The notes beneath the pieces were generated by a model. The model ran no database searches. It was not told where the DNA came from and was given only the letters and a program-made list of their open reading frames with translations. From a virus: a DNA stretch of 27,128 nucleotides. Below are positions 6,775 through 22,811 of the stretch, in pieces. Where the stretch lies: positions 1 through 27,128 of the IMG/VR virus record IMGVR_UViG_3300002140_000257; one strand, written 5' to 3'. The stretch's first letter is position 1; each line of letters begins with the position of its first letter. Made by a program: the position numbers and the translations under genes.

Positions 6775-7568
6775 TAAGTTTAATACAATTATTAAAAGAA
6801 GCACAAGGTAATCCAAAAGCTATTATCTTAGCAGGAGCACCAGGAGCAGGTAAAGGGTACATTTTACGTGGTTTAGATCTAGGAGGTCTAAAAATAATGA
6901 ATGTAGATGATATTTACATTAACTTGCTTAAAAAAGCAAATGTATCATTAGATTTAAAAAATGCTACACCCGAAGAAAGAAGTCAACAGGCTATACAAAT
7001 GGCAGCTGCAAATAAAGAATTTAAAGGTAATTTACAAACTACTATTGAAGGTAAAGAATCATTTATATTAGATGGTACAGCTGCATCTTATAACACTACA
7101 GTTAAATTAAAAGACGAGTTAGAAGAAGCAGGATATAGTGTATTTATGCTTTATGTTTATACAGATTTAGAACGTTCATTATCTCAAAACCAATCCCGCT
7201 ATGAAAAATCTGGGGGTGAAGATAGAAGTTTATCACCTGCAATTGTAATGCGTACTTGGAAAGATGTGACTAATAATTTACCAAAATACGCTGATTTATT
7301 TGGATTTAATTTTGTAGCAGTTGCTAATACATTAGATGATAGAATGCAGGATATAGATAAGATTATAGATAAATATCTTAAACCATTTACACCTACAGGT
7401 ACTAAACCTAAAACACCTGCTCAACAAAAGAAATCAGATGAACAAAAGGCTCAAGATAAAGAAGAAATTCAAGCTATGTTAAGCGACGATTTTGTATATG
7501 ATGTAATTGAGTATACAATGTCAAAAGAAGAAGCACAAATGAGAATTAAACAATTTTTATCTAAATGA
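6771..7568 (+). CDS. P-loop kinase, zeta-toxin / AAA_33-like, with candidate capsid-targeting tag
   Basis: A 265-residue protein. It opens with MISLIQLLKE|AQ, a short helix ending in L-K-E like a prohead-targeting peptide. A canonical Walker A follows, GAPGAGKG at 22-29. Then come NVDDIYINLL (substrate-side Asp pair near 46-47), FILDGTAAS, VFMLYVYTDLERSLSQNQSR (lid region) and SLSPAIVMRTWKDV. This order fits zeta-toxin-like and polynucleotide-kinase-like P-loop kinases. The C-terminal 50 residues are Lys/Gln rich and probably a linker plus a small helical domain. Substrate is unknown. It overlaps both neighbours by 4 nt (ATGA), so translation is coupled. If the tag is real, the kinase would be packaged in the capsid. 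Confidence 0.75.
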   Translation: MISLIQLLKEAQGNPKAIILAGAPGAGKGYILRGLDLGGLKIMNVDDIYINLLKKANVSLDLKNATPEERSQQAIQMAAANKEFKGNLQTTIEGKESFILDGTAASYNTTVKLKDELEEAGYSVFMLYVYTDLERSLSQNQSRYEKSGGEDRSLSPAIVMRTWKDVTNNLPKYADLFGFNFVAVANTLDDRMQDIDKIIDKYLKPFTPTGTKPKTPAQQKKSDEQKAQDKEEIQAMLSDDFVYDVIEYTMSKEEAQMRIKQFLSK

Positions 7569-10500
7569 GTTTAGTTAACGAATTAATAAAAGGACTATTA
7601 CCTGAAAATGAACAAAGGGAAGTAGCTGTATATGGGGGTGGTTTTAAACCACCTACTAAAGGGCACTTTGAAGTAGTAAAAACTGCATTAAATAAAAACC
7701 CTAATATAGATAAATTTATTGTCTTAATTGGGGGTAAAGAGAGGGATGGTATAAGCCCTGACGAATCTTTATTAATTTGGGACATTTATAAAAAATATTT
7801 ACCTATTTCGGTTGAAATACAATTAAGTCCTAAACCACCAATTCAAGCAGTATATAACTACGCTAAAAATAACCCTGAGGAATTAGTACTATTTGTTATA
7901 GGTGCTAGAGAAGGTAATGAAGAAGATTTTAAAGATATTGCTTCTAGAACTACAACACTAGATAAATACCCTAATATGAGATTAGAAACTGTCATCACTA
8001 GAGGTGGGGTGTCAGGTACAGCAGCTAGAAATGCTTCTAAAATATCATTAGAAAAATTTAAACCGTTCGTCCCATCTGAATTATCAGATGAAGAAGTAGA
8101 AGAAGTATATAATATAGTATCAAATAAAGTTCAAGAAATATTAACTGAAAATGCTTCATATTCTCAAAATATAGACCTTAAAAGAGAAATAGCTAAATTA
8201 ACAAAACATATGATTGATAAAGGGATGAATATACAACCTTTACCTAAACTTGTGTTTAAAAATGGTGATAGTGAAAATGCTAAACAATTTCTTGGTAAAA
8301 CGGCATATTATGACCCAAATTCTATGTCTATTGTGTTATATACTGAAGGTAGACACCCAAAGGACATAGTACGTTCATTTTCACATGAAATGGTTCATCA
8401 CACTCAAAATCTAGAGGGTAGATTAGGTGAAATTACAACAACAAATACTCAAGAAGACGATAATTTAGATAAATTAGAACAAGAAGCTAATCTAAAAGGT
8501 ACAATGACATTCAGAAATTGGACTGATAGCTTAAATGAAAATTTAACTAAAAATTCAAACCAAATATACCATTGGACTTCATACTTAGCATGTAAAAAAA
8601 TAATTGAGTCTAATAAATTAAAAAGCAATAGAGCTAATCAATTTTTTGAGTATGATGAATCTAGAATTCTTTCTGATTATGAAAACGTAGTGTTTTTTAC
8701 AGAGGAGAATGAAAGATTTGCAGATGAAGAAAATTCAAATCAATGTATTTTAGTTGTAGATAAATCTAAACTATCTAAAGATTATAAAACTATACCCTAT
8801 GGTGGCCCATATGAAGAAATTATAGTTTATACTAATGATTCATTTATTCCAATTTTCCCCTATTTAAAGGGTGTTTTATTAATGAACACTCTCCAAAAAT
8901 CAGGTGTTAAAAACTTAGTACAATTTTTAGAATTAAAAAATATACCTTACGAAATAAATGATAATTTAGAAAAACAAGCAACAGCTAAAAAAGCTATGTT
9001 ACCTACTCTTAAAAAAGAATTAATTAATAAATTAAAATCAAAATACCCAAATGGGTTTATAGGGTATTTAAATTCACCTTTAACATCTAGACAAACTCCT
9101 GAATATTTTAAAGATAACCCCACATATAGTTTCCCTAATATTACAATAAACAAACCCGGAAAATATGGAGAAAAAAATAAATTTCAAATTCAATTCGAAA
9201 TTAAACCCCAAAACCTTGAAAAATATATAAATTGGTTTATGTATAGTCCTGATTCTATTGAAGATTTAATAAATATGGATAACTATGAAGGGGAAGAATT
9301 GTATTTGAAAGGGGATATACCTATAGACCCAACCACTTTACTAGAAGCTAACCTAAAAGGTACAATGACATTCAGAAATTGGACTGACAGTTTAAATGAA
9401 GCAATTGTAGGTGATAGAATTAAAGAAGCTAAAGAAGAAGTTACAGATTCCATGGTAGTTGTTTTATCAAGAAATGATAACCAAATTAATCTTTATAACC
9501 TTAAAACGAATGAGGCTTTAGGTAATATTAATACTTATGGAAATGAAGTAACTGGCGTAGCAGCTAAAAAAGGGTATGGTCCCTTAATGTATGAGTTAGG
9601 AATGGCTAATATTTACCCTAAGGGGTTACAATCGGATAGAAGGGGTAACACTGAAGCCCCAGCTGAAGCCGTTTGGAAAAAATATATAGCAGGTGCTTCC
9701 CCCAATATTAAAGTGGAAAAACTTACACCTAAAGATAGAGATTACAGAACTACATATGCTGGTGATGAGTATGATTCATCTTACATACCTGATTTCTACA
9801 ATTATAAATTTTATAACCCCAATACTACTACTTTAAAACAATTAATCCAAAAAGGAAATACTCTATCGGATGAATTAAGAAGAAAAATCATTTTGGATAA
9901 TGATGAACTATATAATGATTTGGTTAATGAAGCAATTGTAGGCGATAAAATCGAATGTGACAACTGTGATTGGAGTTGGGATATTGTAAGTGGTGGTAAT
10001 GATTTATTTGTGTGTCATAAATGTGGGCACGATAACACCCCAGTAGAAGAAAAGAAAAATAAAGACCCATTTGGTTTAAACGCGTATGCACGTGAATTAG
10101 CTATGGGGTTAGAAGAAAACGAAAAGGTTATGGATTATAAAATTTATTGTGATATGGACGGCGTGTTAGCCGACTTTGAAAGTGGATATGAAAAATTAAC
10201 TGGTATAGATTTACGAGGTGAATTTCAAAAAGGAGATGATTTTTGGGATCCGATTTCTAAAGCTGGAGTTGGATTTTGGGCAGGACTAAAATGGATGCCT
10301 GGGGGACAAGAATTATGGGCTTATCTTAAACCTTATGACCCTGTACTACTATCAGCCCCCTCACGTGAGGAATCTTCAAGAATAGGTAAAGCGGTATGGG
10401 TAAAACATAAAATACCAGGTACAAAATTAATATTACGTTATGCCAGTCAAAAACAAGAATTAGCAACCCCAGAATCAATATTAATAGACGATAGACAAGT

Positions 10501-10594
10501 TAACATAGATCAGTGGGAAGCTGCAGGGGGAATTGGTATATTACATACTAGTACAGCTAATACAATTCAACAGTTACAAAAATTAAGTTTATGA
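7565..10594 (+). CDS. Multi-domain cargo polyprotein: nucleotidyltransferase, metallopeptidase, ART-like module, GNAT-like module, zinc ribbon, HAD phosphatase
   Basis: A 1009-residue protein. Residues 1-195 form a nucleotidyltransferase with GGGFKPPTKGHF (24-35, HIGH-like T31/H34) and SGTAAR (150-155). Residues 196-325 form a gluzincin-like peptidase with HEMVH (274-278) and a likely third zinc ligand E307. Residues 326-593 have YHWTS (H336), FFT (379) and PYEEII (E417/E418), reminiscent of the H-(S/T)-E pattern of ADP-ribosyltransferase folds; this is a weak call. Residues 613-787 resemble a GNAT-like phage domain (VAAKKGYGPLMYELGM). A zinc ribbon has C798, C801, C817 and C820. Residues 858-1009 form a HAD 5'-nucleotidase-like domain (D863-M-D865-GVLADF). 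Modules meet at ILTE|N, SLNE|N, SLNE|A and LVNE|A, which resemble T4 prohead-protease sites. Direct repeats mark two of the insertions. It overlaps both neighbours by 4 nt. Confidence 0.8.
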   Translation: MSLVNELIKGLLPENEQREVAVYGGGFKPPTKGHFEVVKTALNKNPNIDKFIVLIGGKERDGISPDESLLIWDIYKKYLPISVEIQLSPKPPIQAVYNYAKNNPEELVLFVIGAREGNEEDFKDIASRTTTLDKYPNMRLETVITRGGVSGTAARNASKISLEKFKPFVPSELSDEEVEEVYNIVSNKVQEILTENASYSQNIDLKREIAKLTKHMIDKGMNIQPLPKLVFKNGDSENAKQFLGKTAYYDPNSMSIVLYTEGRHPKDIVRSFSHEMVHHTQNLEGRLGEITTTNTQEDDNLDKLEQEANLKGTMTFRNWTDSLNENLTKNSNQIYHWTSYLACKKIIESNKLKSNRANQFFEYDESRILSDYENVVFFTEENERFADEENSNQCILVVDKSKLSKDYKTIPYGGPYEEIIVYTNDSFIPIFPYLKGVLLMNTLQKSGVKNLVQFLELKNIPYEINDNLEKQATAKKAMLPTLKKELINKLKSKYPNGFIGYLNSPLTSRQTPEYFKDNPTYSFPNITINKPGKYGEKNKFQIQFEIKPQNLEKYINWFMYSPDSIEDLINMDNYEGEELYLKGDIPIDPTTLLEANLKGTMTFRNWTDSLNEAIVGDRIKEAKEEVTDSMVVVLSRNDNQINLYNLKTNEALGNINTYGNEVTGVAAKKGYGPLMYELGMANIYPKGLQSDRRGNTEAPAEAVWKKYIAGASPNIKVEKLTPKDRDYRTTYAGDEYDSSYIPDFYNYKFYNPNTTTLKQLIQKGNTLSDELRRKIILDNDELYNDLVNEAIVGDKIECDNCDWSWDIVSGGNDLFVCHKCGHDNTPVEEKKNKDPFGLNAYARELAMGLEENEKVMDYKIYCDMDGVLADFESGYEKLTGIDLRGEFQKGDDFWDPISKAGVGFWAGLKWMPGGQELWAYLKPYDPVLLSAPSREESSRIGKAVWVKHKIPGTKLILRYASQKQELATPESILIDDRQVNIDQWEAAGGIGILHTSTANTIQQLQKLSL
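8483..8539 (+). repeat. 57-bp direct repeat, copy 1 (encodes EANLKGTMTFRNWTDSLNE)
   Basis: It matches 9344-9400 at 54 of 57 positions; the three differences are all synonymous. It encodes the C-terminal end of the metallopeptidase domain, including its presumed third zinc ligand, and ends at an L-N-E site. Confidence 0.9.
9344..9400 (+). repeat. 57-bp direct repeat, copy 2
   Basis: Second copy of the 8483-8539 repeat, in the same frame (residues 594-612). The copies bracket the ART-like module of about 800 bp. Copy 2 no longer follows a peptidase domain, so it looks like the footprint of an insertion or unequal crossover. Confidence 0.9.
9395..9416 (+). repeat. 22-bp direct repeat NEAIVGD, copy 1
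   Basis: AATGAAGCAATTGTAGG followed by TGATA; it matches 9926-9947 with one mismatch and in the same frame. It starts at the end of 57-bp copy 2 and opens the GNAT-like module. Confidence 0.8.
9926..9947 (+). repeat. 22-bp direct repeat NEAIVGD, copy 2
   Basis: Second copy, closing the GNAT-like module (residue 788 on) and opening the zinc-ribbon/HAD part. The pair brackets about 510 bp. Confidence 0.8.
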
Positions 10595-11623: not shown

Positions 11624-12250
11624 ATGGACAACTTTAACTTTAAAAAATATCTAGCTGAAGGTAAAATTCACCAAGATTTAACTGAAAACTTAGGTCTAGA
11701 AGAAGCTAATATTGGTTTAGCCGATTTAGAAGAAACAGGCTACGAGGATGGAGAAAAATCAGTAGCTATGCATTTTAACCAGGATGTAATTGGTATTAAT
11801 AGTAGACCTGATTTCTTTGCATACAGAAAAGGATTCGTTCAAGCGGTAGTGGATAGTACCAAGTCATATGAAATAAATGAAGACATTGATGATGCTAAAG
11901 ACGATATAAAAGATACTTTATCTAAAATGAAAGTATCTGAGCTTAAAGCTAAAATCAAAGAACAAATATTAGCTGAATTGTCACTATCAGAAGCTGAAGA
12001 AGAAGTTGATGTTAATATTGACGTTGAAGACGAAGTTGATGTTGATGTTGAAGCTGACGATATTGAAATCGAAAAACCAGCAACAAAAGTAAAAGTTGAA
12101 GTAGGTTTATCCCCAGAAGAAGAATTAATTCAAGATTCTTTAAAAGCAGCAATGGATGCAGCTGATGCCATAGGAAACGATAAATTATCAGACCAAATAG
12201 GAAATACAATTACATTTTTTACTAGAGAATACGTAGTAGGAAATAGATAG
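11624..12250 (+). CDS. Acidic tagged virion-type protein (capsid-targeting tag [12 protein letters not shown])
   Basis: A 208-residue, strongly acidic protein. Residues 1-12 are the tag [13 protein letters not shown]. Residues 24-78 ([21 protein letters not shown]...[16 protein letters not shown]) form a module also present in the protein at 21565. Residues 104-123 ([20 protein letters not shown]) resemble the N-terminal tag of that same protein, here used internally. Residues 124-150 are an alternating acidic/Val tract ([16 protein letters not shown]). The C-terminus [20 protein letters not shown] resembles a helix common in T4-like phage virion proteins. Acidic, protease-site-bearing proteins of this type make the prohead core in T4. 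A core or internal-protein role is inferred. Confidence 0.72.
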
Positions 12251-17487: not shown

Positions 17488-18320
17488 TGGATAATTTTGA
17501 TTTAAAAAAATATTTAGCCGAAGGTAAATTATTAAAAGAAAACACTGAAAGAACAGTAGAAGGAGAAATAAGAGATTATTTTGATACTTTAATAAAAAAC
17601 CAACCTGAAGACGCACTTAATTTAATAATGGATCTTATCAGTAATGATGGGGGAAATTTTAAAGAGTGGATAGATGATATTCAAAGTGATATTGTAGATT
17701 CTTGGGGTGGTGATTATGATGGTCCTATCAGAGGGTATAGAGAAGATGATGAAGAGGATGAGTTGGATGAAAATTTAAATGAAGAAATTGAAGATGAAGG
17801 TCCTGAAGAAGATGCTTTCGATGCTGAATTCCAAAATGCTGCTAATCAATTAGCAGCTACTATAGGTAAAGAATTAAAAGATAAAAAAGCAGAAAATCCT
17901 GAAGCATTAAACGAAGCTATAGTAACATCTGTTATAGCTGGAGTTTTAACAGGTAATGCTGTTTTAGGATTTATTTCTAAAATGTCTGCTAAATTAATGA
18001 AAAAATTAAATTGGAAAAAAGGTGAAGACTTTGCTGAAAAAGTTCATAAATGGGCTCATGATAATGAAGTTGCCTTTCAAACTCCAATTAAACGTGTTTT
18101 AGCATTCTTTATTAAAGACCCAAAAACATTAGATATAACAGTTAAAGCTATTTATGCAATTATAGTAGGTAGTATGGCTGCGGGTTATGGGGCAAGTGCA
18201 GTAGAAAGCTTAGAAAAAGCAGATTGGTTTAACTCAGCATTATCATCTTTAAAAACCTTAGCTAAATCAGACGAAGCAATTGCTAATGCGTTCCCAGCTA
18301 TTAAGTCATTAATGACATAG
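17487..18320 (+). CDS. Tagged protein with acidic N-terminal half and hydrophobic C-terminal domain
   Basis: A 277-residue protein. Residues 1-12 are the tag MDNFDLKKYLAE|G. Residues 13-135 are strongly acidic, with runs such as EDDEEDELDENLNEEIEDEG. A second site, EALNE|A, lies at 141-143. Directly after it comes a hydrophobic segment (AIVTSVIAGVLTGNAVLGFI, 144-163). An amphipathic stretch with LMKKLNWKKGEDFAEKVHKWAH follows, and then a second hydrophobic segment (ITVKAIYAIIVGSMAAGYGAS, 217-237). The C-terminal half could insert in or bind membranes after cleavage, with the acidic half keeping it soluble before. I recall similar C-terminal domains in phage proteins of unknown role. The next 120 nt hold the hairpin/promoter block. 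Confidence 0.7.
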   Translation: MDNFDLKKYLAEGKLLKENTERTVEGEIRDYFDTLIKNQPEDALNLIMDLISNDGGNFKEWIDDIQSDIVDSWGGDYDGPIRGYREDDEEDELDENLNEEIEDEGPEEDAFDAEFQNAANQLAATIGKELKDKKAENPEALNEAIVTSVIAGVLTGNAVLGFISKMSAKLMKKLNWKKGEDFAEKVHKWAHDNEVAFQTPIKRVLAFFIKDPKTLDITVKAIYAIIVGSMAAGYGASAVESLEKADWFNSALSSLKTLAKSDEAIANAFPAIKSLMT

Positions 18321-18321
18321 T

Positions 18322-18356
18322 AAATAAAAATTTATAGACTGATTCATAGCCAGTCG
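18322..18356 (+). repeat. 35-bp direct repeat with hairpin, copy 1
   Basis: Identical over 35 nt to 19253-19287. It holds the stem GACTG (18337-18341) / CAGTC (18351-18355) with a 9-nt loop, preceded by AAATTTATAG. It follows the stop of the 17487 gene by 1 nt. Confidence 0.9.
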
Positions 18357-18378
18357 ATTTAAATAAAAAAAACATAAG

Positions 18379-18427
18379 CATCTGTGGCGCAATCATTTGG
18401 ATTTGGGTCTTTTTTTTCGTATATTTA
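18379..18427 (+). promoter_or_regulatory. Host-type promoter candidate, copy 1, with weak hairpin and T8 run
   Basis: TTTG at 18396-18399 and TATATTTA at 18420-18427, 20 nt apart. CAATC (18390-18394) and GATTTG (18400-18405) form a weak hairpin around the -33 box, followed by eight T (18410-18417). The leading CATCTGTGGCG (18379-18389) is conserved at 19306. The only reading frame it serves directly is the truncated FAD copy. Confidence 0.6.
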
Positions 18428-18442
18428 AACATAAAATAAAAC

Positions 18443-18589
18443 ATGGACAAGAAAATAGTAATAGTAGGAGCAGGTGTAGCAGGTATAAATGCTGCAACAA
18501 AATTAGTAGACAATAACTTTGACGGTAAAATTACTATTATAGATATGGGGAAAAACCCATATGAAAGAAAATATATAAAAATACAATAA
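18443..18589 (+). pseudogene. Truncated duplicate of the FAD dehydrogenase gene (first 44 codons)
   Basis: A 48-codon frame. Its first 44 codons align without gaps to the start of the FAD gene at 19378; 35 of 44 residues are identical. The homology ends after RKY (nucleotides about 18575), and four unrelated codons follow before TAA. It retains the canonical FAD-binding GAGVAG (G9, G11, G14), whereas the full-length gene reads GAGVAN. The promoter block upstream is duplicated too. Many differences are synonymous, so the copies have diverged for some time or come from different phages. It could be a remnant, or a short peptide that is still expressed. Confidence 0.85.
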
Positions 18590-18590
18590 T

Positions 18591-18824
18591 ATGTTTCCTA
18601 AAATAAAAGAAAATTTAGAAATTTCTGAAGGTTTTGATTTTGAAATTTCTCCTATAACTTATGATAAAGATTTTAATCCAACTAGAAAGATAACATTTGA
18701 TTGGTGTGTTGAAATCCCTCAAAATATGATAATGGAGTATGGAGAAGATAAAATAATTGAAACTTTTAGTGAAAAATTAAAACAAGATTTTAAGAATTTT
18801 ATTAAATCTTCTAAACAAATTTAA
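18591..18824 (+). CDS. Small protein of unknown function between the duplicated blocks
   Basis: A 77-residue protein starting 1 nt after the stop of the truncated FAD copy. It begins MFPKIKENLEISEGFDFEI. It continues with KITFDWCVEIPQNMIMEYGEDKIIETFSEKLKQDFKNFIKSS. It looks like a small alpha/beta domain with a charged C-terminal helix. There is no L-x-E tag near the N-terminus beyond LEISE|G at 9-13, which could be one. There is no known family. It would be transcribed from the copy 1 promoter together with the FAD fragment. Confidence 0.55.
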   Translation: MFPKIKENLEISEGFDFEISPITYDKDFNPTRKITFDWCVEIPQNMIMEYGEDKIIETFSEKLKQDFKNFIKSSKQI

Positions 18825-18852
18825 TTTTCTTAGACTTTTTCTTAGATCTATA

Positions 18853-18862
18853 ATATTTATAA
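18853..18862 (+). promoter_or_regulatory. Candidate late promoter (ATATTTATAA)
   Basis: Exact 10-mer in the 63-nt gap before the tagged gene at 18888; it ends 25 nt before the start. Confidence 0.55.
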
Positions 18863-18887
18863 TATATAACTAAAATAATAAAACCAA

Positions 18888-19253
18888 ATGGACAATTTCG
18901 ATTTAAAAAAATATTTAGCGGAAGGTAGGCTATTAAACGAAGAATTTAAAAGAATGCAAAAACTAGCAGGAATCCAGTTAAATGAAAATTTCTCCCCAAA
19001 TGAAATAGAATCCCTAGCATCCAGCTTGGATACAGGATTAAGATTTTCATCAGAAACCTCAAAGGGTAGATTTATTGATTTGGGTATTAGTTTTATTTTA
19101 TCTCCTGATGGAAACCAACTTATATTAAATATAACTCCAAGTACTGGATATGATGATCCCCAAGAATTTATAGATGATATTGAAAGTGAAATAGGATTTC
19201 CGGAGTATGATTTTAGTGTAAAGGGTAATAAAGTTTACATTACTAAAAAATAA
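18888..19253 (+). CDS. Small tagged protein (MDNFDLKKYLAE) of unknown function
   Basis: A 121-residue protein. It begins with the tag MDNFDLKKYLAE|G. A second segment follows, EEFKRMQKLAGIQLNE|N, which resembles the RMQKLAG motif seen near the N-termini of many T4-like phage proteins. Three (L)-x-E sites thus lie within the first 34 residues (LAE, LNE, LNE). The body (SLASSLDTGLRFSSETSKGRFIDLGISFIL, NITPSTGYDDPQEFIDDIESEIGFPEYDFSVKGNKVYITKK) looks like a small alpha/beta domain. It has its own candidate late promoter. The gene lies between the two copies of the promoter/hairpin block, so it may be a newly inserted cargo gene. Confidence 0.7.
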   Translation: MDNFDLKKYLAEGRLLNEEFKRMQKLAGIQLNENFSPNEIESLASSLDTGLRFSSETSKGRFIDLGISFILSPDGNQLILNITPSTGYDDPQEFIDDIESEIGFPEYDFSVKGNKVYITKK

Positions 19254-19287
19254 AATAAAAATTTATAGACTGATTCATAGCCAGTCG
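19253..19287 (+). repeat. 35-bp direct repeat with hairpin, copy 2
   Basis: Identical to 18322-18356, with stem GACTG (19268-19272) / CAGTC (19282-19286). Perfect conservation here contrasts with the diverged FAD-coding part downstream. Confidence 0.9.
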
Positions 19288-19310
19288 CGATTAAAAATAA
19301 ATTGACATCT

Positions 19311-19341
19311 GTGGCGTCTTCATTTGGAGACTCCACTTTTT
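19311..19341 (+). terminator. Hairpin terminator overlapping the FAD gene promoter
   Basis: GTGG-C-GTCT (19311-19319) pairs with AGAC-T-CCAC (19328-19336) with a single mismatch. The loop is TCATTTGG, and five T follow (19337-19341). The loop contains the -33 box of the next promoter. Confidence 0.75.
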
Positions 19342-19354
19342 GTTCGTATATTAT
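19323..19354 (+). promoter_or_regulatory. Host-type promoter candidate for the FAD gene
   Basis: TTTG at 19323-19326 and TATATTAT at 19347-19354, 20 nt apart, with TTCG before the -7 box. The start codon lies 23 nt downstream. Confidence 0.65.
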
Positions 19355-19377
19355 AACCTAGTAAAAAATTAAAACAC

Positions 19378-20691
19378 ATGAGTAAAAATGTAGTAATGGT
19401 TGGAGCCGGAGTAGCAAATGTAAACGCTGCTACTAAACTAATTGATAATGGATTTGATGGTAAAATTACCATAATTGATATGGGTAAAAACCCATACGAT
19501 AGAAAATATAGTGAAGTAATGGAAGGTTTCCTAGGAGCAGGAGGTTGGTCTGATGGTAAATTAACTTACCACACAGCAATTGGTGGTCAATTAACCAAAT
19601 ATTGTGGTGAAGAAAAAGCAATGGAATTATTTGACCAAGTTATAGCTAACTTCAAACGTTTCCACCCTAAACCAGAAGAAGTACAATGCTCAGATCCTCA
19701 AGCAGAACCTGATTTTATTAAACCTTATTTTGGTTTAAGATTATTTCCAGTATGGCACGTTGGTACAGATTATTTACATGAAATTGGTAAAAATTGGTAT
19801 GACTTTTTAGTAGATGGTGGTGTTGAATTTATTTGGGAAACTAAAGTAACATCTATTGACTTTGATAATAATGAATTATTTATTGGTGAGGAGGAATCTT
19901 TTGTAAATCCAAAAAATTGGCCTATTTCATATGATACACTTATCTTTGGGGTAGGTAAATCAGGTATTGATTTTGGTAAACAGTTAGCAGAACAATATGA
20001 TCTACCAACTGAACCTAAACCCGTACAAATAGGTGTTCGATTTGAAGCACCACAAAAACACTTCCAAAAATTAATTGATATTTCATATGATTTTAAATTA
20101 TATAGAAAATATGAAGATAAAGGTGTATCATTAAGATCATTCTGTACAAACAATAATGCTGCTTATGTTGCCGTTGAAGAAACATATGGAGATCATTCGT
20201 ACAATGGCCACGCTAAAAAAGATGAAGCATTTAGAAATAATATGACTAATTTTGGTATCTTAATGGAAGTACAAGGAATAGAAAAACCATTCGAGTGGTC
20301 TAGAAACGTAGTATCTAAATTACAGAAAAATGGAACCGGGTTATATTATAGTCCAACACGTAAACCATCTACAACATCAGAAGGAGAGGTTGTATCATCC
20401 CGCCAAATTAAAGATTTAGATTTAGTTAGGGAACTTTTTGAAGGTACTTATTCGTATATTGAGTCATTCATAGAAGATATGAAGAAAATATTCCCAACAT
20501 TAAAAAACGATTGGGGTATTTATGTACCTGAAGTAAAATATCTATCACCTGAGCCACTTGTTGATTATACTAATTTAGCCTTGACCAAGTATCCAAACGT
20601 ACATTTTGTTGGGGATGCACTTTCCGCTAGAGGTATAACAGTAAGTGGTGCACAAGGGACATATGTTGCTGAGTATATTTTGGCTAATTAA
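19378..20691 (+). CDS. FAD-dependent dehydrogenase-like protein (COG2509 type)
   Basis: A 437-residue flavoprotein-like protein. A Rossmann FAD-binding motif opens the protein (VVMVGAGVANVNAATKLI, 5-22) with an acidic strand end (IIDMGKNPYDR). The block FLGAGGWSDGKLTYHTAIGG, the central NAD(P)/FAD-type strand and the final FVGDALSARGITVSGAQGTYVAEYI are typical of the COG2509 family of FAD-dependent dehydrogenases. The third glycine of the GxGxxG motif is Asn (N14). The truncated copy upstream keeps Gly there. Substrate is unknown. It carries no capsid tag and has its own host-type promoter, so it is probably an early or middle gene acting in host metabolism. A second promoter overlaps its 3' end. 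Confidence 0.82.
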   Translation: MSKNVVMVGAGVANVNAATKLIDNGFDGKITIIDMGKNPYDRKYSEVMEGFLGAGGWSDGKLTYHTAIGGQLTKYCGEEKAMELFDQVIANFKRFHPKPEEVQCSDPQAEPDFIKPYFGLRLFPVWHVGTDYLHEIGKNWYDFLVDGGVEFIWETKVTSIDFDNNELFIGEEESFVNPKNWPISYDTLIFGVGKSGIDFGKQLAEQYDLPTEPKPVQIGVRFEAPQKHFQKLIDISYDFKLYRKYEDKGVSLRSFCTNNNAAYVAVEETYGDHSYNGHAKKDEAFRNNMTNFGILMEVQGIEKPFEWSRNVVSKLQKNGTGLYYSPTRKPSTTSEGEVVSSRQIKDLDLVRELFEGTYSYIESFIEDMKKIFPTLKNDWGIYVPEVKYLSPEPLVDYTNLALTKYPNVHFVGDALSARGITVSGAQGTYVAEYILAN

Positions 20692-21564: not shown

Positions 21565-22152
21565 ATGAAAAGATCTGAATTAAAAGAGTTTATAAAAGGG
21601 GAAATATTTTCTTCCCTATCCGAAGCATCAATGGAAGATGTTAATAACCAAAAGGAATTAAACAAAGAACTTGAAAAAACCTCTAAATTAAGCAAAGAGA
21701 TGGGTCTAGAAGAAGCTAATATGGGTCTAGCCGATATTGAAGAAATGGGCTTTAAAGCTGGTGAAGAAGCATTTGAAAACATTAAGTCTAGATTCAAAAA
21801 TAAACCAGACCACCAAGCATATCGAAAAGGATTCTTTCAAGGGTATATAGATAATGCTGGTAATTATGGGTTAAATGAAGACGTTGATGATGAGGATGAT
21901 GGTGATGATGATGCAAAATCCGAGAAAGATGCAATTGCACAAGCTAATGCTGCCCGAGGTAAGCATAAAAAATTAGATATTGCGGTTAAGGCCTTAAAAG
22001 ACATCACTACTGAAATGAAGTCTTTAGCACGTGACTATAGTAAAGCAGATGGTGCCGAAAAAGAAAAAATTAAAGACCAACTAAAAATAAAAACACCTAA
22101 AAAGAAAGAATTAGAAGCATTAGTTGCTAAATTAGAAAAAAATGTCATCTAA
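21565..22152 (+). CDS. Tagged acidic virion-type protein, paralogous in part to the 11624 product
   Basis: A 195-residue protein. The N-terminus MKRSELKEFIKGEIFSSLSE|A is a second type of tag; the same pattern (SELKxxIKxxI...LSE|A) occurs inside the protein at 11624. Residues about 50-95 (MGLEEANMGLADIEEMGFKAGEE ... PDHQAYRKGFFQGYIDN) repeat the module of that protein. An acidic run follows (DVDDEDDGDDD). The C-terminal third is a Lys-rich coiled coil (KKLDIAVKALKDITTEMKSL ... KKELEALVAKLEKNVI). It has its own late-promoter candidate. It overlaps the next gene by 11 nt. A prohead-core or internal-protein role is inferred. Confidence 0.7.
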   Translation: MKRSELKEFIKGEIFSSLSEASMEDVNNQKELNKELEKTSKLSKEMGLEEANMGLADIEEMGFKAGEEAFENIKSRFKNKPDHQAYRKGFFQGYIDNAGNYGLNEDVDDEDDGDDDAKSEKDAIAQANAARGKHKKLDIAVKALKDITTEMKSLARDYSKADGAEKEKIKDQLKIKTPKKKELEALVAKLEKNVI

Positions 22153-22525
22153 AGAAAGGTTTATATATATAGCAATATTATTCTTTGGAGTATATTATTT
22201 GTTTAATATGTATTCTTCAAATGAGGAAAAATATACTATTGAACATAATAGTAAAATAAAAAAGTTAGAAACTAAGATAGATTCACTACACGGTATAAAT
22301 GAAAGTTTAACATTTAAAATTGATACTTTAAATACCAAAATAGTAGCCCTAGACCGAGAAATTAACCTACAGGATAATAAAATTATTATATTAAGACACC
22401 AAACAAATGAAAAAATTAATAATGTTGATCTTTATAAGTATGATGAGCTTGAACGTTTTTTCACAGAACGTTATAGACAGCACTTCGATACGATTAAACA
22501 AACCAACAGCTCGTCTAGTAATTAA
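22142..22525 (+). CDS. Membrane-anchored coiled-coil protein, candidate inner-membrane spanin (Rz-like)
   Basis: A 127-residue protein. The short N-terminus MSSKER is followed by one membrane segment, FIYIAILFFGVYYLFNMY (7-24). A long coiled coil comes next: IKKLETKIDSLHGINESLTFKIDTLNTKIVALDREINLQDNKIIIL. A hydrophilic tail ends it. This N-in/C-out topology with a periplasmic coiled coil is that of i-spanins. The following gene overlaps it by 119 nt in another frame, as spanin pairs often do. The overlapping partner lacks a lipobox, so the assignment is tentative. The gene overlaps the tagged gene upstream by 11 nt. Confidence 0.6.
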   Translation: MSSKERFIYIAILFFGVYYLFNMYSSNEEKYTIEHNSKIKKLETKIDSLHGINESLTFKIDTLNTKIVALDREINLQDNKIIILRHQTNEKINNVDLYKYDELERFFTERYRQHFDTIKQTNSSSSN

Positions 22526-22811
22526 GGATCTAATAACTGGAGATAGTTATAAAAAGGAATTATTCATAATATCAAATAAAGTTTCTTTATTAGAAAGTAA
22601 AATTGTTTTAAAAGATAGTATTGAAAATAGCCTTCTTTATAAAATTGGTAATCTTAATTTAATATTATTAAATAAAAGTTCCCAATTATCTCTTACTGAT
22701 GATTTAAATAAAAAATTAATATCTGACTTAATTAAACAAAAAAGAAAAACAAAATTAATAGGAGGAATCGGAATCATAGCTGTAATAGGAACCGCTATAC
22801 TAATTAAATAG
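22407..22811 (+). CDS. Secreted protein with C-terminal membrane segment, embedded start in the preceding gene
   Basis: A 134-residue protein read in a different frame from the gene it overlaps by 119 nt. A signal peptide is clear: MKKLIMLIFISMMSLNVFSQ, with likely cleavage after FSQ or FS, a form typical of Bacteroidota secreted proteins. No Cys follows, so it is not a classical lipoprotein. The middle is helical (ELFIISNKVSLLESKIVLKDSIENSLLYKIGNL). A C-terminal hydrophobic segment LIGGIGIIAVIGTAILI (117-133) would anchor it in the inner membrane. It could be the partner in a lysis (spanin-like) pair or part of another envelope function. It ends 4 nt before the terminase gene. Confidence 0.62.
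   Translation: MKKLIMLIFISMMSLNVFSQNVIDSTSIRLNKPTARLVIKDLITGDSYKKELFIISNKVSLLESKIVLKDSIENSLLYKIGNLNLILLNKSSQLSLTDDLNKKLISDLIKQKRKTKLIGGIGIIAVIGTAILIK

Follow-up and report, generated by a model that had tools for sequence, protein, structure and literature searches.

A previously uncatalogued RNA, predicted to fold into two hairpins with mutually pairing loops, is present in hundreds of uncultured aquatic phages. Two copies of this element, A and B, are located in the window, i.e. the entire 27,128-nucleotide stretch analysed here (IMG/VR virus record IMGVR_UViG_3300002140_000257), a T4-like phage sequence whose terminase shares 65% identity with its counterpart in Flavobacterium phage immuto; no closer cultured relative was found. 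We favour, with moderate confidence, the interpretation that the element is a cis-acting structured RNA which would serve as a kissing-hairpin antiterminator or attenuator in front of the operon of a flavoprotein gene (FAD gene), and that copy A in the window is a remnant of recombination. As a kind, the element would be a structured cis-RNA; what appears to be new are the repeatedly re-wired kissing loops overlapping a terminator-like hairpin and a promoter.

The first-pass annotation had described homologous promoter/hairpin blocks at positions 18322–18575 and 19253–19509. Local alignment of region 18300–18600 with 19230–19540 confirmed this homology with a score of 211, compared to a maximum of 35 obtained with 500 shuffles. 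Likewise, we found the described 35-nt identity (18322–18356 and 19253–19287), the CATCTGTGGCG sequence, the TTTG-N20-TATATT motif and the 44 FAD codons common to both copies, and the two genes separating them, ORF77 of unknown function and a tagged gene. While the duplication as such stood, the content of the block had to be redefined as a two-hairpin kissing RNA together with a terminator-like hairpin and a promoter, the repeated hairpin being the first half of this conserved RNA. A covariance model of the element gave exactly two matches in the window (E-values in Table 1), the next best reaching an E-value of 0.03. The stop codon of the truncated FAD frame ends one base before the ATG of ORF77.

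Table 1. Predicted features of the duplicated region, numbered along the window.
Feature	Position	Strand	Remarks
Tagged gene, 277 aa	17487–18320	+	directly 5′ of copy A
Copy A, P1: GACTG - ATTCATAGC - CAGTC	18337–18355	+	loop 18342–18350; exact match; covariance model match 18335–18392, E 8e-17
Copy A, P2: GC - ATCTGTGGC - GC	18378–18390	+	loop 18380–18388; weakened, 2 pairs; model alignment; kissing CATAG/CTGTG
Copy A, degenerate terminator-like hairpin and T-run	18386–18417	+	-5.8 kcal/mol, copy B -14.2 kcal/mol
Copy A, promoter-like TTTG-N20-TATATT	18396–18425	+	pattern scan
Truncated FAD gene start, 48 codons, 44 homologous	18443–18589	+	from ATG; reads MDKKIVIVGAGVAGINAATKLVDNNFDGKITIIDMGKNPYERKY-IKIQ*
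ORF77, unknown	18591–18824	+	without relative among the loci fetched
Tagged cargo gene, 121 aa	18888–19253	+	MDNFDLKKYLAEG start
Copy B, P1: GACTG - ATTCATAGC - CAGTC	19268–19286	+	loop 19273–19281; exact match; covariance model match 19266–19319, E 2e-15
Copy B, P2: GAC - ATCTGTGGC - GTC	19304–19318	+	loop 19307–19315; model alignment; covaries in relatives
Copy B, terminator-like hairpin GTGGCGTCTTC-ATTT-GGAGACTCCAC and T-run	19311–19341	+	overlaps P2
Copy B, promoter-like TTTG-N20-TATATT	19323–19352	+	TTTG overlaps terminator loop
Intact FAD gene, COG2509-like flavoprotein, 437 aa	19378–20691	+	phrog_12409 dehydrogenase; predicted structure matches 3NLC

The first hairpin, P1, is a covarying stem closed by the loop ATTCATAGC, and it is followed about 30 nt downstream by P2, a short and variable, likewise covarying stem with the loop A[G/T]CTGTGGC. 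More than 300 distinct viral sequences, exclusively from IMG/VR contigs, contain this element, and the 21-mer TAGACTGATTCATAGCCAGTC occurs without mismatch in at least 120 IMG/VR stretches. Loci selected by the FAD protein alone revealed the same hairpin with different stems and an unchanged loop, the P1 variants including GACAG/CTGTC, GTCAG/CTGAC, GGATAG/CTATCC and GAACAG/CTGTTC. Across 341 distinct viral sequences, the P1 stem occurs in 33 types and P2 in 37 combinations. Among 50 divergent representatives, every pair of P1 (five) and of P2 (three) shows two-sided changes, and 97.5% of the cells in the combined alignment are paired, compared to at most 51% in slid versions. As imperfect P1 pairs are G-U in 19 cases and A-C in just one, the structure is assigned to RNA of the FAD-gene sense strand. 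The identity of the hairpin in copies A and B had been ascribed to either selection or recent gene conversion; the covariation of P1 in relatives and the presence of the same 21-mer in at least 120 other contigs argue for selection and render gene conversion unnecessary. In approximately one sixth of the elements the linker contains an additional small hairpin, whose loop is often GNRA-like, and hairpin-like inserts between P1 and P2 (e.g. L052:396-485, L075:258-345) are apparently tolerated. The sequence AACATATA(G), located about 9 nt 5′ of P1 in most elements (18328–18336 in the window), is fairly conserved, with 80–90% at several positions.

The loops of P1 and P2 are complementary over five to six bases. 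In the main class, CAUAGC of loop 1 matches GCUGUG of loop 2, in the window copies CAUAG matches CUGUG, and within the first set of sequences the CATAGC/GCTGTG helix is invariant except for the last pair. A second element of locus L392 (G006), situated 5′ of a different gene, contains ATTCATTAC and AGTAGTGGC instead, with two positions altered on each side and complementarity preserved; including loci known earlier, a scan found this pair at ten loci, always in front of the FAD operon. Distant FAD genes, which had been collected regardless of the presence of an element, added the classes ATTCATTGC/AGTAGTGGC, ATTTATAGC/AGCTGTAGC, ATCTATAGC/AGTTGTAGC and ATTCACGGC/AGTTGTGGC. Loops re-wired in this way, such as CATTAC/GTAGTG and TATAGC/GCTGTA, stand 5′ of the same operon. 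In the combined alignment, for which variant rows were admitted with at least five kissing pairs, three of six pairs of the kissing helix show two-sided changes, and 95.8% of the kissing cells are paired as compared to 56% or less in slid versions. On the FAD tree, the kissing pairs have undergone a minimum of 6, 6 and 14 changes, provided that element and FAD gene share a common tree, from which the element's own tree may differ. As both loops were re-wired together in the variants, the loop-loop helix is supported by compensatory change and not just by conservation. Candidates with fewer than five kissing pairs were mostly one terminase coding stretch, besides scattered chance matches and a copy in L066 with P1 only. 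A search for arbitrary 9-nt kissing loops was swamped by chance matches (834 real, 743 control); our claims are therefore limited to motif-constrained classes.

The loops are nearly invariant beyond the needs of pairing: in every class loop 1 starts with ATT or ATC, and loop 2 begins with A and ends with GC or AC. Together with the strict linkage to one gene, this would fit a binding site for a phage protein, for example in flavoprotein autoregulation or for a phage antiterminator. We regard such a role as quite improbable, because several loop changes preserve the pairing, which is harder to reconcile with a protein reading the bases, and an RNA-binding domain was not recognised in the FAD model.

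The genomic position of the element is highly constant. All 323 elements with enough 3′ sequence lie upstream of the same COG2509-like flavoprotein gene, 263 of them at a distance of up to 130 nt, and no complete element away from the FAD gene was found among those with enough downstream sequence. Near FAD-selected loci contain the element in 64 of 66 cases, the remaining two having a one-base insertion in loop 1 (L027) or reaching the contig end (L065). Among 66 distant FAD loci it was detected in 56 and not seen in ten within the sequence examined. Each of 13 large contigs (110–172 kb) harbours one exact loop copy, to which the covariance model added an orphan P1 (G001), a re-wired element (G006) and two weak matches. 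The element starts at a median of 9 nt past the stop codon of the upstream gene, which is variable, whereas the downstream FAD operon is constant. Orphan P1 hairpins lacking P2 were noticed just after other genes (L066:3083, L222:4599, L475:1075), those of L066 and L222 within arrays of tagged genes.

From loop 2 onward, 308 of 331 elements contain a terminator-like hairpin followed by a T-run, and in 292 of the 331 its 5′ arm covers the 3′ strand of P2. Of 257 distinct sequences, 203 have the P2 3′ strand inside the 5′ arm of the terminator; as swapped controls yielded a terminator-like hairpin in 39%, this overlap is supported, though not exclusive. The GGGAGCTGTGGCCCC clade (15 sequences) retains both hairpins without a recognisable terminator. 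The TTTG-N20-TATATT motif follows 3′ of the terminator-like hairpin, with TTTG often inside the terminator loop. Bacteroidetes promoters carry TTTG as their -33 element. The resemblance of the motif to such promoters, for which a -7 consensus TAnnTTTG was reported (PMC9723704), suggests a host-type promoter. Owing to the position of this promoter 3′ of the element, the FAD gene can probably be transcribed independently of the element, without passage of the polymerase through it.

RNA structure, loop kissing, strand, linkage to the FAD gene and terminator-like overlap are each borne out by sequence comparison, and a P2 3′ strand located within the terminator 5′ arm is what one would expect if the RNA were an attenuator. 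This layout points to an attenuator separating the FAD operon from the late cargo genes, whose switching function and signal we infer. While the polymerase transcribes the end of the late cargo operon, P1 and then P2 would fold, and their loops would kiss. The kissing complex would sequester RNA otherwise forming the 5′ arm of an intrinsic terminator and so act as an antiterminator, with transcription continuing into the FAD operon; if the loops did not kiss, the terminator would form. Candidate signals deciding between both outcomes are a metabolite, a protein or a ribosome halted on the stop codon located about 9 nt 5′ of the element. In addition, the FAD operon would have its own host-type promoter overlapping the terminator. 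Tentatively, one may go further and propose a new class of phage riboswitches or attenuators, in which the kissing RNA senses a metabolite or the infection state and controls read-through from cargo to FAD genes, with loop pairs being re-wired repeatedly.

Alternatively, the element might represent the 3′ end of the upstream late mRNA, with the kissing hairpins as a cap which together with the terminator stabilises the transcript, or as a source of a 3′-end small RNA. Its start shortly behind upstream stop codons, its terminator-like end and the persistence of orphan P1 hairpins at other gene ends agree with this idea. We nevertheless consider it unlikely, since the upstream genes vary and the FAD operon is constant, full elements were not found at other operon ends, and one clade is devoid of the terminator.

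Concerning the origin of the two copies, relatives carry a single element directly before the FAD gene. This simple state was found in L006, L156 and L149, and in L006 and L156 the element follows tagged genes. It agrees with the earlier proposal that the start of an FAD gene was left behind upon entry of other genes; the window would contain two elements because foreign genes recombined into this spot. The FAD fragment of copy A is closest to L149 (89%) and the intact FAD gene of copy B to L006 (98.5%), yet the coding parts of A and B share only 77% identity, with 15 synonymous and nine non-synonymous codon differences. This pattern is better explained by recombination between phage lineages than by an in-place duplication. 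The FAD fragment of copy A looks to be derived from a different phage lineage than copy B, and the mostly synonymous differences indicate that both were probably functional genes while they diverged in separate lineages. A tandem duplication within the phage lineage, with copy A decaying afterwards, appears rather improbable in view of these identities, even though the sister relationship of A and B was not rejected by the AU test on the tree of the 44-codon fragment (132 nt, p 0.53). Presumably, a cassette with ORF77, the tagged gene, element B and FAD B came in and became fused to codon 44 of an FAD gene from another lineage, which would have left copy A as a partly decayed remnant; we infer this order of recombination events.

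Complete or partial elements in tandem, separated by genes, occur in L066, L222, L338 and L392 as well as in the window, and these similar states indicate that the locus repeatedly takes in genes. They would also suit a block acting mainly as a recombination site, a conserved DNA for cargo swapping with its identity kept by exchange. This explanation is highly improbable, because the stems covary around unchanged loops and, on one strand, G-U outnumbers A-C, whereas a DNA homology site would favour identity and not paired change. Recombination at the element is better seen as a consequence than as a cause.

The structure of the FAD protein, which we take to belong to COG2509, was predicted with a pLDDT of 89.7. 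The predicted fold matches the FAD-dependent protein VP0956 of Vibrio (PDB code 3NLC) over most of the chain (382 of 437 residues, Z 31.6, rmsd 2.8 Å), followed by matches with a Z of 19.9; in comparison, 3NLC is longer (534 residues) and shares just 19% identity. Sequence comparison of the FAD protein with the PDB resulted in weak matches to ribonucleotide reductase (E 0.04), which were judged spurious. Distant relatives with 24% identity were found in Campylobacter phages, and a scan with one FAD query yielded three loci only. Insertion of a tagged-looking gene and a GIY-YIG endonuclease-like gene has divided the FAD gene of L477 (G001:150500-155500) and L392 into two reading frames.

Four genes of the window (starting at 11624, 17245, 17487 and 18888) share the tag MDNF-[DN]-[LF]-KKYLAEG and differ afterwards; starts of the MDNFDLKKYLAEG type were present on several unlike genes of the window and its relatives, which thus have a common N-terminal tag. 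Internal-protein genes of phage T4 similarly share an N-terminal capsid targeting sequence (PMC9026906). The tagged genes lie next to the RNA and do not belong to the element. Elsewhere in the window, a 1009-aa frame (7565–10594) resembling an adenylyltransferase at its start and a nucleotidase at its end contains two 93% identical DNA copies (8479–8539, 9340–9400) coding for ANLKGTMTFRNWTDSLNE between unlike segments. Two overlapping small frames (22142–22525 and 22407–22811) with membrane-like starts are located just 5′ of the terminase gene.

Rfam 15, including the guanidine-II model, gave no matches in the window or in ten element-bearing loci, and with E-values up to 10 only chance-like matches outside the element appeared. 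Comparison of the 97-nt element with 50,697 phage records yielded no genuine match, and the covariance model did not detect it in phages immuto and Mel-JY01 or in gut phage MT836377. When 84,980 species genomes of bacteria and archaea were scanned for the pattern, 36 matches were obtained, two of which had a 5-bp P1 and neither of these a P2 of at least 2 bp; the covariance model found none in 395 Bacteroidota genomes, a set containing no positive control. No description of the motif was found in the literature accessible without subscription.

Among known systems, the put RNAs of phage HK022 are cis-acting antiterminators of two hairpins which act on RNA polymerase at distant terminators. The element resembles them as a two-hairpin phage RNA but instead overlaps one terminator-like hairpin. 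The loops of the guanidine-II riboswitch are short ACGR sequences, whereas the phage element has 9-nt loops, a longer kissing helix, the terminator-like overlap and a flavoprotein operon. Tandem hairpins with interacting loops, documented here by compensatory changes, are an analogy of architecture only to guanidine-II (mini-ykkC), in which two small linker-joined hairpins were proposed to kiss through their loops (PMC7544219, PMC9094411). H-type pseudoknot riboswitches (SAM/SAH, preQ1-I) are also small pseudoknotted RNAs, some of them using an alternative terminator. In preQ1-I, a loop pairs with a single-stranded tail. The same pairing is described for SAM/SAH (PMC7367207); in contrast, the loop of the phage element pairs with that of a second hairpin.

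For readers of such genomes, these results explain a puzzling duplication, as selection on an RNA and not gene conversion would keep the copies identical. The re-wired kissing loops constitute a ready-made natural set of loop pairs for studies of RNA loop-loop recognition. A widespread structured RNA outside the Rfam release searched is tied, in a large group of uncultured phages, to a conserved uncharacterised flavoprotein, and the element may provide a handle on the timing and purpose of its production by these phages.
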